Under the pieces are notes generated by a model that was not told the origin of the DNA, did no database searches, and was given only the letters and a program-made list of their open reading frames with translations. A stretch of DNA of 42,118 bases from Alphaproteobacteria bacterium (GTDB taxonomy: Bacteria; Pseudomonadota; Alphaproteobacteria; UBA828). Made by a program: the position numbers and the translations under genes. The DNA lies in NCBI GenBank assembly GCA_022826665.1, contig JAJDUK010000100.1, positions 1 through 42,118 of the forward strand, written 5' to 3'. Shown piece by piece: positions 34,792 through 39,866 of this stretch (its first letter is position 1; every line of letters begins with the position of its first letter).

Positions 34792-36077
34792 GCGCCGTCC
34801 ACGCTCCCTGGATCACGGCGCCGGCCACTCGCGCGGTGATCGACGCGCTCACCGCCGAGGGCGCCGATGTCCGCTTCGTCGGCGGCTGCGTGCGCGACGC
34901 GCTGCTGGCGCAAGAGAGCAACGATATCGACATCGGCACGCCCGATCCGCCCGAACGCGTGATGGCGCTGCTGGAGGGCGCCGGCATCGAGACCCGCACC
35001 GTCCCGCGCGGCATCGAGCACGGCACCGTCACCGCGCTTGCCGGCGGCGAGCGCTACGAGATTACGACGCTCCGGCGCGACGAGCGCACCGACGGCCGCC
35101 ACGCCGAGGTCGCCTTCACCGACGACTGGCGGGAGGACGCGGCGCGGCGCGACTTCACCATCAACGCCATGAGCGCGTCGCCCGACGGCACTCTCTACGA
35201 CTATTTCGGCGGGCAGGAGGACCTGAAGGCCGGTCGCGTGCGCTTCGTCGGCGTCCCCGCGACCCGCATCGCCGAAGACCACCTCCGCATCCTCCGCTTC
35301 TTCCGCTTCTACGCCTGGTACGGCAAGGGTGAGCCGGACGCAGACGCACTCGAAGCCTGCGCTGCGGCGGCGCACACCCTCCCGCTGTTTTCGGCTGAGG
35401 CGACGAATACAATCCCGAGGATTTCGTACGAACGAGTACAGAGCGAGTTTATTGGTCTGCTTTCAGCGCCGGATCCTGCGTCATCCGTGCAAGCCATGTG
35501 GGATACTGGCGTGCTTGCTCGCCTGCTTCCAGAGACACAACGGACGGAACCTCTGTCCCGTCTCGTCACGGTCGAGAGGGCGTTTGCCCAGCCCGATCCG
35601 ATCAGGCGCCTCGCCGCTCTTAACTTAGACACCCACGAGGACAACTCCGAGAGGCGTGTCGACACTAGATTGCTCGCTGGCGTCTGGTTGCGAACCGGTG
35701 TCGATGCCGGGCGTCTTTTCTCCATCGCCTCGCAGGCGACTTCCCTCCCAGCTAGCCTCGACAGGCGTGTCCAACGAAGCCTCATCTATCAGTCCGGCAA
35801 GCAGCGCTTCCGTGACGTGGTGTTGCTCGCTTGGGCTAGGGACACGAAGCATGAGATCGCTTGGCGTGCGATGCTGGAAACTATTGAGCATTGGGAGGCA
35901 CCGACGTTTCCATTGACGGGTGCCGACGTGCTGGCCCGCGGCATACAGGAGGGGCCCGAGATCGGCCGCCTGCTCAAAGCCGTCGAAGACTGGTGGATCG
36001 AGCGCGACTTCGCGCCCGACCGCGCGGCCTTGCTCGAGAAGCTCGACGCCCTCGTCGCGGAGCGCCGCCGGGCGTAG
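34788..36077 (+). CDS. cca: CCA tRNA nucleotidyltransferase
   Basis: About 429 residues. The head domain shows RFVGGCVRDALL and the catalytic NDIDIGTPD, followed by RDFTINAMS and DLKAGRVRFVG and the nucleotide-selecting EDHLRILRFFRFYAWYG region, all typical of class II CCA-adding enzymes, which build or repair the 3' CCA of tRNAs. No ATG, GTG or TTG occurs near the expected start. The best candidate is CTG at 34788, overlapping the previous stop as CTGA; GTG at 34836 would cut into the first helix. From about 35395 to 35925 the codon choice and GC content change sharply to a less GC-rich style and then return, although the frame stays open. This looks like an imported internal segment. Confidence 0.9.
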   Translation: MSAVHAPWITAPATRAVIDALTAEGADVRFVGGCVRDALLAQESNDIDIGTPDPPERVMALLEGAGIETRTVPRGIEHGTVTALAGGERYEITTLRRDERTDGRHAEVAFTDDWREDAARRDFTINAMSASPDGTLYDYFGGQEDLKAGRVRFVGVPATRIAEDHLRILRFFRFYAWYGKGEPDADALEACAAAAHTLPLFSAEATNTIPRISYERVQSEFIGLLSAPDPASSVQAMWDTGVLARLLPETQRTEPLSRLVTVERAFAQPDPIRRLAALNLDTHEDNSERRVDTRLLAGVWLRTGVDAGRLFSIASQATSLPASLDRRVQRSLIYQSGKQRFRDVVLLAWARDTKHEIAWRAMLETIEHWEAPTFPLTGADVLARGIQEGPEIGRLLKAVEDWWIERDFAPDRAALLEKLDALVAERRRA

Positions 36078-36087
36078 CCGCCCGCTC

Positions 36088-37815
36088 CTACTCCGCTGCT
36101 TCGGCGGCGCCGTCCAGGCCGTAGTGCTCCCGCGCCGAGGCCGGCGAGATGTAGCCCTCGGCCAGATCCTCGATCACCTGCTCGCGCGAGCGCTGGCGCG
36201 GATCGCCCCAGCCGCCGCCGCCCGGAGTCTGGAAGCGGATCGAATCGCCCGGCCGGATGCGGACGTTGCTCCACTTGCTCGGGCTGGCCTTGCCGAAGGC
36301 CTCGTCGATCATGTGCCAGCTGGTCGTGTTCGCGGACTGGTGCCAGGTGCCGGCGAGGCCGCCAGGCTGGCCGCCGTGCAACCCCCAGGGCCGATTGCGG
36401 TGGCGGTCCGACATCTGGCTGCCCATGATCTCGGTATCCAGGCTCTTGAGCGTGCGCTGGGTGCTGAGCCCGCCGCGGTTCAGGCCGGCGCCGCCTGAAT
36501 CCTGCACCAGAATGTAGGACTCGGTGCGGAACGGGAAGCGGGTCTCGAACACCTCCACCGGCACCACCCGGCAGTTGCCGTTGATCGAATCGGTGGCGTC
36601 GTTGCCGTCGGCGAAGCTGCGCCCGCCCCAGCCCGAAAGCTCGATGGCGTAGCAGACGAAGGCCTCTCCGGTCTCCTCGTCGGTGCCGCCGAAGACAAAG
36701 TTGGTGTGCGTCGCGCCCTCCGCCGCCATGGTGCGATCCGGCAGCGCCGGCGCCAGCGCGCCGATCACCGCGCCCGCGATCTTGCAGTGGGTCTCGGTGT
36801 TGCCGCCGACCTCGGGCCCCGGATAGTCCACATTGAGCAGGGTGCCGGGCGGCGAGACCACGCGGATCGGACGGAAGCAGCCCGAGTTCTTCGGGATGGT
36901 CTCGTCGGTGACCTGCAGGATGCCGTTGTAGGCGGCAGAGTAGGAGACGCCGAGGGTGGCGTTGATCGGGCCCAGCGCCTGCGGCGAGGTGCCGGAATAG
37001 TCGATCACCACCTCCCCGCCCTGGACGTGGACCGCCACCTTGATCGTATACGGCTTGCTCTCGATGCCGTCGTCCTCGACCTGGTCCTGAAAGCGATAGA
37101 CGCCGTCCTCGATGGCGCCGATCTCCGCGCGCATGCGGCTCTCGGAGTAGTCCATCAGGTCGAGCACGTTGCGGCGGAACTGCTCCTTGCCGTACTTGCG
37201 GATGAGCTTGGCGAGCCCGCGCTCGCCCACGTCCACGCCCGCGATCAGCGCGCGCAGGTCGCCGTAGTTGTAGCGGGGGGTGCGGACGTTCGCGAGCAGC
37301 AGCTTCCAGACCTCCTCCACGTCCTCGCCGCGGCTCTTGATCTTGACCGGGGGCACGCGGATGCCTTCGTGGAAGATCTCGGTCGCCTCGCCGGCGAAGG
37401 CGCCCGGCACCATGCCGCCAATCTCCTGCAGATGCCCGATGGTCATGGCGAAGCCCATGAGCTCGTCATCGACGAAGACCGGCTTGATCAGGGTGTGCTC
37501 GGGGCAGTGCAGGCCGCCGCGATAGGGGTCGTTGTGGCAGATCACGTCGCCGGGCTCGAGGGTCTCCAGCGGGATCTCCTTGACGCAGCTGCGCACCAGC
37601 AGGGGCACGCCGCCGATCATCGAGGGGCAGTATTCGGCCTGCGCGATCATCTCGCCTTCGGGGCTCGCGAGCGCGCAGGTGAAGTCCAGCGCCTCGTTGA
37701 AGATCGTCGAGTACGACGTCTTCATCAGCACGATGCCCATCTCGCGGCAGACCGCGGTCATGGTGGAGTCGATGATCGACATGGCGACCATGTCGACGTC
37801 GGGCTTCTGGGTCAT
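36088..37815 (-). CDS. Hydantoinase/oxoprolinase B-family subunit
   Basis: A 575-residue protein of the HyuB family. Conserved stretches include TSYSTIFNEALDFTCAL, GDVICHNDPYRGGLHCPEH and GHLQEIGGMVPGAF, in which Asp and His residues probably bind metal in this family and in acetone carboxylase alpha. The C-terminal part has GGGGWGDP. It lies two bases from the A subunit gene and works with it in an ATP-dependent ring-opening or carboxylation reaction. Substrate (N-methylhydantoin, oxoproline or another) is not decidable here. It meets the CCA transferase gene end to end. Confidence 0.88.
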   Translation of the reverse strand: MTQKPDVDMVAMSIIDSTMTAVCREMGIVLMKTSYSTIFNEALDFTCALASPEGEMIAQAEYCPSMIGGVPLLVRSCVKEIPLETLEPGDVICHNDPYRGGLHCPEHTLIKPVFVDDELMGFAMTIGHLQEIGGMVPGAFAGEATEIFHEGIRVPPVKIKSRGEDVEEVWKLLLANVRTPRYNYGDLRALIAGVDVGERGLAKLIRKYGKEQFRRNVLDLMDYSESRMRAEIGAIEDGVYRFQDQVEDDGIESKPYTIKVAVHVQGGEVVIDYSGTSPQALGPINATLGVSYSAAYNGILQVTDETIPKNSGCFRPIRVVSPPGTLLNVDYPGPEVGGNTETHCKIAGAVIGALAPALPDRTMAAEGATHTNFVFGGTDEETGEAFVCYAIELSGWGGRSFADGNDATDSINGNCRVVPVEVFETRFPFRTESYILVQDSGGAGLNRGGLSTQRTLKSLDTEIMGSQMSDRHRNRPWGLHGGQPGGLAGTWHQSANTTSWHMIDEAFGKASPSKWSNVRIRPGDSIRFQTPGGGGWGDPRQRSREQVIEDLAEGYISPASAREHYGLDGAAEAAE

Positions 37816-37817
37816 GG

Positions 37818-39866
37818 TCAGGACTCCTCGGCGATGCGGCCGATCAGAAGATTGCCGTACTGATCCACCTTCATGGGTTGGCCGGGGCGTAGCACGGTCA
37901 CCGAGACCGGCTCCTCGATGACCGCAGGCCCGGTGATCGCGTGGCCGTCGCGCAGCTGGGCGCGGTTGTAGATCGGCGTCTCGTGGCGCCCGTCGTCGAA
38001 CACGACCGAGCGCGTCGAGACGACCTCGGGCTCGCCGTCGGCCTTGCCGATGGTGGCAAGATCGGGTTTTTCGGTGAGCGAGACGACGGTGGCCTTGACG
38101 GTGATGACCTCGATCACCTCGCGCGGGATGTTGAAGCCGAAGCGCGCGAGGTGCATGTCGTGGAACGCCTGCCAGACCTTGGGCGTGGTCTCGTCGGTGA
38201 AGGAATCGAAGGCGACCGGGATCTCCAGCTCGTAGTTCTGGCCGAGATAGCGCATCTCCAGCGAGCGGTAGATCTCGATGTTCTTGACGTAGCCCTGCGC
38301 CTTCAGCTCGGCGATGCCGGTCTCGATCAGCGCGTGCATCACCTCCGATGCCCGCGCCTGGTCGAAGCGCTTGGAGGTCATCTGCACCGTGCGCTGCACG
38401 TCGACGCGGGCATCGGTGAGGATGAAACCGAAGGCCGAGAACTGGCCCGGATAGTTGGGGATGACGCCCGACGGGATGCCGGCGTCGTTCATCAGGTCCG
38501 CCGAATGCAGCGGACCCGCGCCGCCGAAAGCGAGCAACGCGAAGTCGCGGGGGTCGAGGCCGCGCTCGATCAGCACCGAGCGGAGCGCCCCCACCATGTT
38601 GTTGTTGGCGATCTGCACGATGGCGAGTGCCGTCTCCTCGGCGGTGCGTCCCAAGGGCTCCGCAACCGTCGCGATCGCCTTCTCAGCCGCCGCGACATCG
38701 AGGGCCATTTCGCCGCCCAGGAAGTTCTCGGGGTTGATGCGCCCCAGCAGCAGGTTGGCGTCGGTCACCGCCGGGCGCTCGCCGCCGGTGCCGTAGCAGG
38801 CGGGGCCTGGGTTCGCACCGGCGCTCTCGGGCCCCACGCGCAGCATGCCGCCCTTGTCGATCCAGGCGATGGAGCCGCCGCCCGCGCCGATGGTGCGGAT
38901 GTCGATCATGGGGATCTGGATGGGGACGCCGAACTCCACCTCGTAGTCGGTGGTGAAGTTCTCCTGCCCGCCCACGATGGTCGACGTGTCGGTCGACGTG
39001 CCGCCCATGTCGAGGGTGACGAGGTGGCTGATGCCGCTCAGCTTGGCGACATGCTTGCCCGCGATCACCCCGCCGGTGGGGCCGGAGACGGTCATCTGGA
39101 TCGGCGTCCGCTGCGCCGCCTCCAGGGTCATCTCTCCGCCGTTGGACTTGATGACGACGGCCTGGTCGGTGACCCCGCTCCCCTTGAAGCGCTCGCGCAG
39201 GTTCGCGACCTGGCTGTTCACCACCGGCTTGACGTAGGCGTCCGCGATGGTGGTGGACGCGCGCTCGTATTCCTTCCACTTCGGCAGCACGTCGTAGGAG
39301 ATGGAGATCGGAATGTCCGGCAGCTCCTCCTCCAGAATCTCCTTGGCGCGCCGTTCGTGGTCCGGCGTCACGTAGGAGAACAGGAAGTTGACGGCCACCG
39401 CCTCGATGGAGCCCTCCTCCCTGATCTGCTGCGCGATGGCGCGGACCCCGTCCTCGTCGAGCGGCACGTGCACCGTGCCGTCGGACATGATCCGCTCGTT
39501 CACCTCGTAGCAGTTGCGGCGCTTCACTAGCGGCTTCGGCTTGATCCAGGTGATGTCGTAGTGGCTGCGCCTGTTACCCCGCTGGATGAACGGGATGTCG
39601 CGAAAGCCCTCGGTGGTCACGTAGGCCACCTTCGCGCCCTTGCGCTCCAGGATCGCGTTGGTCGCCACCGTCGTCCCCAGCCTGATGTTGCGGATGTCCG
39701 ACGGCGCCTCGAAGCGTCCGAGCCCGCCCAGGATGCCTTCGTTGGGGTCGTGGGGCGTCGACAGGATCTTCCAAACATCGACCGCCCTGGTCTCAGAATT
39801 GTAGCTCACGAAATCCGTGAACGTGCCTCCAACGTCGATCCCGACAAGATAATCTGTCAACACCAC
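37818..39866 (-). CDS. Hydantoinase/oxoprolinase A-family subunit (ATPase fold)
   Basis: A 682-residue HyuA-type protein with the actin-like ATPase fold: phosphate 1 loop GIDVGGTFTD at 9-18, VSGPTGGVIAG, and phosphate 2 loop LDMGGTSTDTS, followed by GAGGGSIAWIDKGGM. It phosphorylates or activates the substrate for the B subunit. The start is GTG at 39866, preceded by GGGAGA; the next codon is also GTG. It is transcribed leftward with the B subunit gene directly after. Confidence 0.88.
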   Translation of the reverse strand: MVLTDYLVGIDVGGTFTDFVSYNSETRAVDVWKILSTPHDPNEGILGGLGRFEAPSDIRNIRLGTTVATNAILERKGAKVAYVTTEGFRDIPFIQRGNRRSHYDITWIKPKPLVKRRNCYEVNERIMSDGTVHVPLDEDGVRAIAQQIREEGSIEAVAVNFLFSYVTPDHERRAKEILEEELPDIPISISYDVLPKWKEYERASTTIADAYVKPVVNSQVANLRERFKGSGVTDQAVVIKSNGGEMTLEAAQRTPIQMTVSGPTGGVIAGKHVAKLSGISHLVTLDMGGTSTDTSTIVGGQENFTTDYEVEFGVPIQIPMIDIRTIGAGGGSIAWIDKGGMLRVGPESAGANPGPACYGTGGERPAVTDANLLLGRINPENFLGGEMALDVAAAEKAIATVAEPLGRTAEETALAIVQIANNNMVGALRSVLIERGLDPRDFALLAFGGAGPLHSADLMNDAGIPSGVIPNYPGQFSAFGFILTDARVDVQRTVQMTSKRFDQARASEVMHALIETGIAELKAQGYVKNIEIYRSLEMRYLGQNYELEIPVAFDSFTDETTPKVWQAFHDMHLARFGFNIPREVIEVITVKATVVSLTEKPDLATIGKADGEPEVVSTRSVVFDDGRHETPIYNRAQLRDGHAITGPAVIEEPVSVTVLRPGQPMKVDQYGNLLIGRIAEES

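Follow-up and report, generated by a model that had tools for sequence, protein, structure and literature searches.

The window, by which we mean the whole analyzed stretch of 42,118 nucleotides, carries a gene, cca, which is present in a single copy in the genome and whose product is predicted to be a class II CCA-adding enzyme (Table 1). The codon at 34797 is GTC and serves solely as the origin of the cca numbering used in all comparisons, not as a claimed start. Both class II domains, the nucleotidyltransferase head (PolyA_pol, 6.7e-31, 107.7 bits, cut-off 23) and PolyA_pol_RNAbd (2.6e-9, 37.1 bits, cut-off 22), exceed their curated Pfam cut-offs, and the best NCBIfam match is the CCA model NF009814 (1.4e-51), which nevertheless scores under its own cut-off. 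The AlphaFold2 model of the protein (pLDDT 92.9) retains the fold of CCA-adding enzymes, including the neck, body, and tail, and such enzymes are its best fold matches in the PDB (query-normalized TM-scores of 0.71-0.76 to 4x4w, 8cbm, and 1miv); model confidence is lowest at an 11-codon insertion and at about residues 281-295. As stated in the initial annotation, the reading frame is unbroken, being open across the entire gene, middle included. In 17 of the 20 sampled tRNA genes of this genome CCA is encoded, whereas 3 lack it, and the enzyme is therefore probably needed. The genes for tRNA-Phe, tRNA-Thr, and tRNA-Val (L226, L235, and L243; genome G000) apparently end in ACC, with G as the next base and no encoded CCA, and the same appears to hold for a congener tRNA-Val gene (L187 17224-17298, G016). 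Pseudogene decay of cca was ruled out by the frame being open in all the genes, the omega of 0.22 in the middle (the same as in the ordinary middle of another genus), the confident fold, and the CCA-less tRNA genes. The 3′ end of cca adjoins a variable region in which the downstream neighbor differs by species: hydantoinase B/A genes follow in this genome (window 36088-39866) as well as in L132, L133, and L135, and a different block, which includes an Ig-domain protein and is 83-85% identical between the 2 contigs, occupies L134 1-9300 and L136 1-9300, which are not from sisters.

Table 1. The cca gene and its parts (coordinates refer to the window)
Feature	Coordinates	Strand	Description
cca, CCA tRNA nucleotidyltransferase (predicted)	34797..36077	+	426 aa counted from 34797; Pfam, AlphaFold2, and PDB fold matches
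N part, native	34797..35327	+	Codons 1-177, head and start of neck; GC3 0.93; tracks the species tree
Middle, hyperdivergent, low GC3	35328..35921	+	Codons 178-375, neck and body; GC3 0.66
11-codon insertion TLPLFSAEATN	35377..35409	+	Residues about 194-204; adjoins TIPRISYERVQ (imperfect duplicate)
C-terminal tail, native	35922..36074	+	Codons 376-426 (51 residues); GC3 0.94; closest to L007 (0.78 aa identity)

The base composition of cca changes twice along the gene. The best 2-breakpoint segmentation of codon GC3 delimits the middle of Table 1, with GC3 of 0.93 outside it and 2-logL support intervals of 35313-35346 on the left and 35912-35990 on the right. The logL gain of this fit is 26.2, compared to a maximum of 13.5 in 200 shuffles, and none of 300 synonymous-codon shuffles in which the protein was kept fixed matched the observed segment (maximum 15.5). 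Inside the middle, A/T-ending codons are enriched with an amino-acid-stratified odds ratio of 7.5. The initial annotation had described GC-ending codons at both ends of the gene and A/T-ending codons in between, which is borne out by GC3 values of 0.91 over the first ~580 bp, 0.66 in the middle, and 0.92 over the last ~155 bp; its placement of the segment at 35395-35925 was essentially right, with the change in GC3 starting about 65 bp further to the left. Codons for amino acids that are invariant in the genus still have a GC3 of 0.58 in the middle, and GC3 at variable residues elsewhere, both in the cca N part and in other genes, is 0.77-0.98. Thus, the step does not reflect a codon-accuracy effect of variable residues, and this candidate was rejected. 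Two further candidates were also rejected, namely, a dual-coding or antisense gene, because congeners do not consistently keep the antisense and alternative frames open, and cytosine-deamination hypermutation, because transversions are common too.

Comparison with the genus, represented by 7 other genomes of which 6 yielded a cca match, showed that divergence is confined to the same part of the gene. Near-identical records are metagenome-assembled bins labeled Rhodospirillales or Alphaproteobacteria; below, L002 denotes this genome and L007 (contig L134) its sister. Upstream of cca, the DNA is syntenic and 92-93% identical to that of L007 over about 10 kb, with identities of about 87-91% to the other congeners. 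The blastn alignment to L007 breaks at 35383 and picks up at 35848 with 78% identity, and a break inside cca is seen in 4 of the 6 relatives, L132 and L133 aligning through at about 79% overall. The middles of L002 and L007 are 44% identical at the amino acid level, and the identity at four-fold sites, which was preferred because codon-model dS is inflated by the strong codon bias in the cca N part, is 0.43 in the middle versus 0.84 in the N part, 0.74 in the C-terminal part, and 0.79-0.89 in neighboring genes. Synonymous sites are hence near saturation in the middle but not in the neighboring genes. Among 252 genes from long congener contigs, cca pairs rank (approximately) among the largest in-gene divergence islands, most of the other top islands coming from incorrect reading frames or from genes with only a weak relationship, and several cca comparisons lie above the 99th percentile for the drop in four-fold-site identity. 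A second in-gene island between congeners was found at L185 16901-18895 on the minus strand (G016), with amino acid identity of 0.58 inside and 0.84 outside and four-fold-site identity of 0.40 and 0.72, respectively; the frame tested there, possibly a wrong one, had no Pfam match. At the edges of the cca middle, identity declines gradually rather than sharply in several other species pairs. Furthermore, the sister genomes also differ strongly between genes, identity being only 0.63-0.68 in 2 intergenic gaps of ~110 bp, and the cca middle is therefore not hugely beyond neutral divergence. The TLPLFSAEATN insertion, which is missing from all congeners and sits in the alignments at the left edge of the sharp drop in identity, is a possible junction scar.

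The same segment stands out throughout the genus. In pairwise comparisons, the N parts are 84-94% identical at the amino acid level and the middles 44-60% (44-55% between L002 and its congeners), and the 2 identities are anticorrelated (Mantel r −0.57, 7 species), such that close relatives have the most unlike middles. GC3 of the middle is below that of the N part in all 6 congener cca genes (0.66-0.82 versus 0.87-0.96). Clear low-GC3 segments of their own are present in L003 (183-351), L004 (239-354), L005 (160-397), and L007 (226-377; all in the numbering of the protein described here), and no distinct segment was found in L006 and L008; a distinct GC3 drop with species-specific ends is accordingly found in 5 of the 7 species. 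When the genus was placed beside 112 other alphaproteobacterial cca genes, all 7 of its members were within the ten largest GC3 drops, and among the 112, only L081 (−0.16) drops comparably to the larger ones of the genus. At equal N-part identity, the middles of the other alphaproteobacterial genes are 0.59-0.92 identical, compared to 0.42-0.59 for pairs within the genus, and hardly any of those genes shows a GC3 step. Within the genus, private changes coincide with GC3 loss by lineage (r −0.36, p 0.01), a coupling that fits tract-like events better than a merely tolerant region. The L004 middle contains a near-perfect tandem duplication (GVLARLLPDT/GVLARILPIE) and the L007 middle a 15-residue insertion. 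No cca-like head domain was found in genome G018 of the same genus, which is 92% complete. In an Azospirillum set, the cca of Azospirillum oleiclasticum (L039) has a branch of 2.83 in the middle versus 0.78 in the N part, with no GC3 step, and is a possible second case in another genus.

Phylogenies of the different parts of the locus are in conflict. The upstream DNA and the cca N part both yield ((L002,L007),L003), with bootstrap values of 100 and 89 for the upstream DNA, and in the downstream block, considered for the 4 species sharing it, the partner of L004 is L006 rather than L002. By contrast, the middle groups L002 with L004 (support 97-99). In AU tests, each partition rejects the topology of the other (p 4e-5 and 0.001), and the repeats gave values of 9e-5 to 5e-4 with codons and 0.002-0.004 with amino acids. 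Alignments simulated on the species tree, with long branches as fitted, recovered the L002+L004 split in 16 of 200 replicates, with a dlogL advantage of at most 4.2 (60 replicates) versus the 19.7 observed, excluding a long-branch artifact as the source of this grouping. Consistently, L007 is closest to L002 over residues 1-177 and 376-426, and L004 is closest over residues 251-375 and over the whole middle. This conflict is the main evidence for, and supports, replacement of the middle. The initial annotation had proposed a homologous replacement inside the gene; the replacement is supported, given that separate trees of the N part and the middle differ and that the AU tests and simulations agree, but a one-off import from a distant lineage is not, given that congeners also have hyperdivergent middles, that these form one clade within the genus, and that no outside donor turned up in the collections searched. 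The annotation had also held that a segment sharing its tree position with the rest of the gene and its composition step with relatives would be native: the tree positions differ, and the step is shared by congeners, in weaker form and with boundaries of their own. Its suggestion that the C-terminal tRNA-binding half may have been swapped applies to the neck and body (178-375), whereas the final 51 residues of the protein are native.

Identity between the middles of L002 and L004 is a mere 55%, which excludes a recent L004 donor and implies either that their common ancestor is remote or that the segment changes rapidly. The middles of all 7 species form one clade, inside the genus, and the exchanged material therefore came from within or near the genus; the most divergent middles have somewhat raised distances to the outgroups. 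Searches of genome, plasmid, phage, and viral collections, in which the clade is thinly sampled, yielded no close donor: phages and viral contigs contained no donor match to the middle, and the best plasmid match was 35%. A single recent import from a distant lineage was rejected as the sole story on the grounds that the middles are monophyletic and that, over the segment as a whole, none of the outside sequences compared is closer. Searches of the genus for silent donor cassettes or partial cca copies revealed none (one copy per genome and one chance-level extra match, E 0.16), and cassette-based gene variation was rejected, there being no additional partial copies in the genus genomes.

Overall, the cca middle looks like the product of recurrent exchange within the genus-level clade, of accelerated divergence there, or of both. 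We consider it probable, at roughly 0.6, that the neck and body were replaced by homeologous recombination with a diverged cca of the same genus-level clade, probably repeatedly. The donor would have been an L004-like cca allele of lower GC3 from another, unsampled lineage of the clade, with the conserved head and tail sequences offering homology for crossovers that would leave the frame intact, and the left junction may retain an 11-codon scar. Because 5 of the 7 species each carry a low-GC3 tract whose ends differ from those of the others and which is deeply diverged from them, replacement of this stretch has probably recurred across the genus. The composition break and its position, the near-saturation of synonymous sites, the tree conflict, and the intact predicted fold are established by the data; we infer that recombination rather than accelerated evolution is most likely the main cause, and infer likewise the donor, the direction of exchange, the scar, and the recurrence. 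The 2 processes may also act together; one could speculate that a divergent tract would recombine poorly with the copies of its neighbors and would thereby lose the homogenization that keeps the flanks alike.

The most serious alternative, although clearly the less probable one, involves no import: the neck and body would have lost part of their protein and codon constraint and drifted towards mutational equilibrium at a speed varying by lineage. Such acceleration in situ would agree with the weaker GC3 step of the congeners, the monophyletic and star-like genus middles, the strongly diverged intergenic DNA, the long branches and some excess outgroup distance of the lowest-GC3 lineages, and the encoding of CCA in 17/20 sampled tRNA genes. 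However, 3/20 sampled tRNA genes lack it, the omega of 0.22 equals that of another genus's ordinary middle and the fold is intact, GC3 is 0.58 at invariant residues of the middle against 0.77-0.98 at variable residues elsewhere, and the conflict between flank and middle trees is not reproduced in the species-tree simulation. A more elaborate scenario, which we regard as doubtful, is that the genus maintains ancient, deeply separated versions of the neck and body, which recombination passes from species to species, perhaps since rare variants escape a tRNA-directed attacker; if true, a core enzyme would display trans-species allelic diversity at the level of a domain. A local mutation shower or a mutable site that altered the segment in several lineages is improbable: the small in-frame duplications or insertions in the L002, L004, and L007 middles and the independent tract ends could be so explained, but both transitions and transversions changed (kappa 2.4), frame and constraint were kept, and the grouping of L002 with L004 is left unexplained. 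Diversifying selection alone on the tRNA-contacting surface, imposed for example by tRNA-directed toxins or phages, is very unlikely; the segment does hold the neck and body, and the closest relatives do have the most different middles (the above Mantel test), but synonymous sites are strongly affected and the overall omega is 0.22. Therefore, selection at the protein level is not the sole cause and could only have favored recombinants. Finally, an assembly or binning chimera, conceivable for a metagenome-assembled genome in 106 contigs with an estimated contamination of 4.03%, is the least credible, given that 6 other congener genomes also have a hyperdivergent middle and that the frame is intact and the fold confident.

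The tRNA nucleotidyltransferase is normally regarded as a vertically inherited housekeeping gene. If its tRNA-binding middle has a history separate from that of the catalytic head and the tail, intragenic exchange can reach core RNA-processing enzymes across species boundaries, and such a history would make cca a risky marker gene for this group. Experiments on the interchangeability of the parts of the enzyme could then draw on the cca genes of the genus as natural chimeras.

In domain composition, fold, and single copy, the cca product resembles characterized class II CCA tRNA nucleotidyltransferases (4x4w, 1miv, 3h38), and it differs from them only in that the neck and body are hyperdivergent within the genus, with the 11-residue insertion at about 194-204. 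Chimeras of CCA-adding enzymes made in the laboratory show that regions can be swapped and that this changes substrate handling (PMC7730189). In that work, nematode and human enzymes exchanged a beta-turn of the catalytic core, whereas the case presented here would be a natural, bacterial exchange of the neck and body. Short intragenic blocks that are at least 24% diverged between otherwise close genomes, and that are enriched in both synonymous and amino acid changes, have been described in strains of Escherichia coli, Staphylococcus aureus, and Streptococcus pyogenes (PMC2884548; Genome Biol 2010;11:R45), with homeologous recombination, mutation showers, and positive selection discussed as causes, the last being disfavored by a synonymous-site argument. 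Three hallmarks of homeologous blocks are found in cca, namely, a divergent block between conserved flanks, enriched synonymous change, and tree conflict, and as in the published loci, the block lies inside an orthologous gene and synonymous sites are hit too. Unlike those loci, which were found among strains of one species, the cca case is between species of an uncultured genus, always falls in one and the same segment of a single tRNA-processing gene, and combines about 40-50% DNA divergence with a GC3 drop and a tree conflict. Thus, the cca case belongs to a known kind of variation, intragenic homeologous microdiversity, and what sets it apart is the gene concerned, the recurrence within one genus, and the between-species scale.
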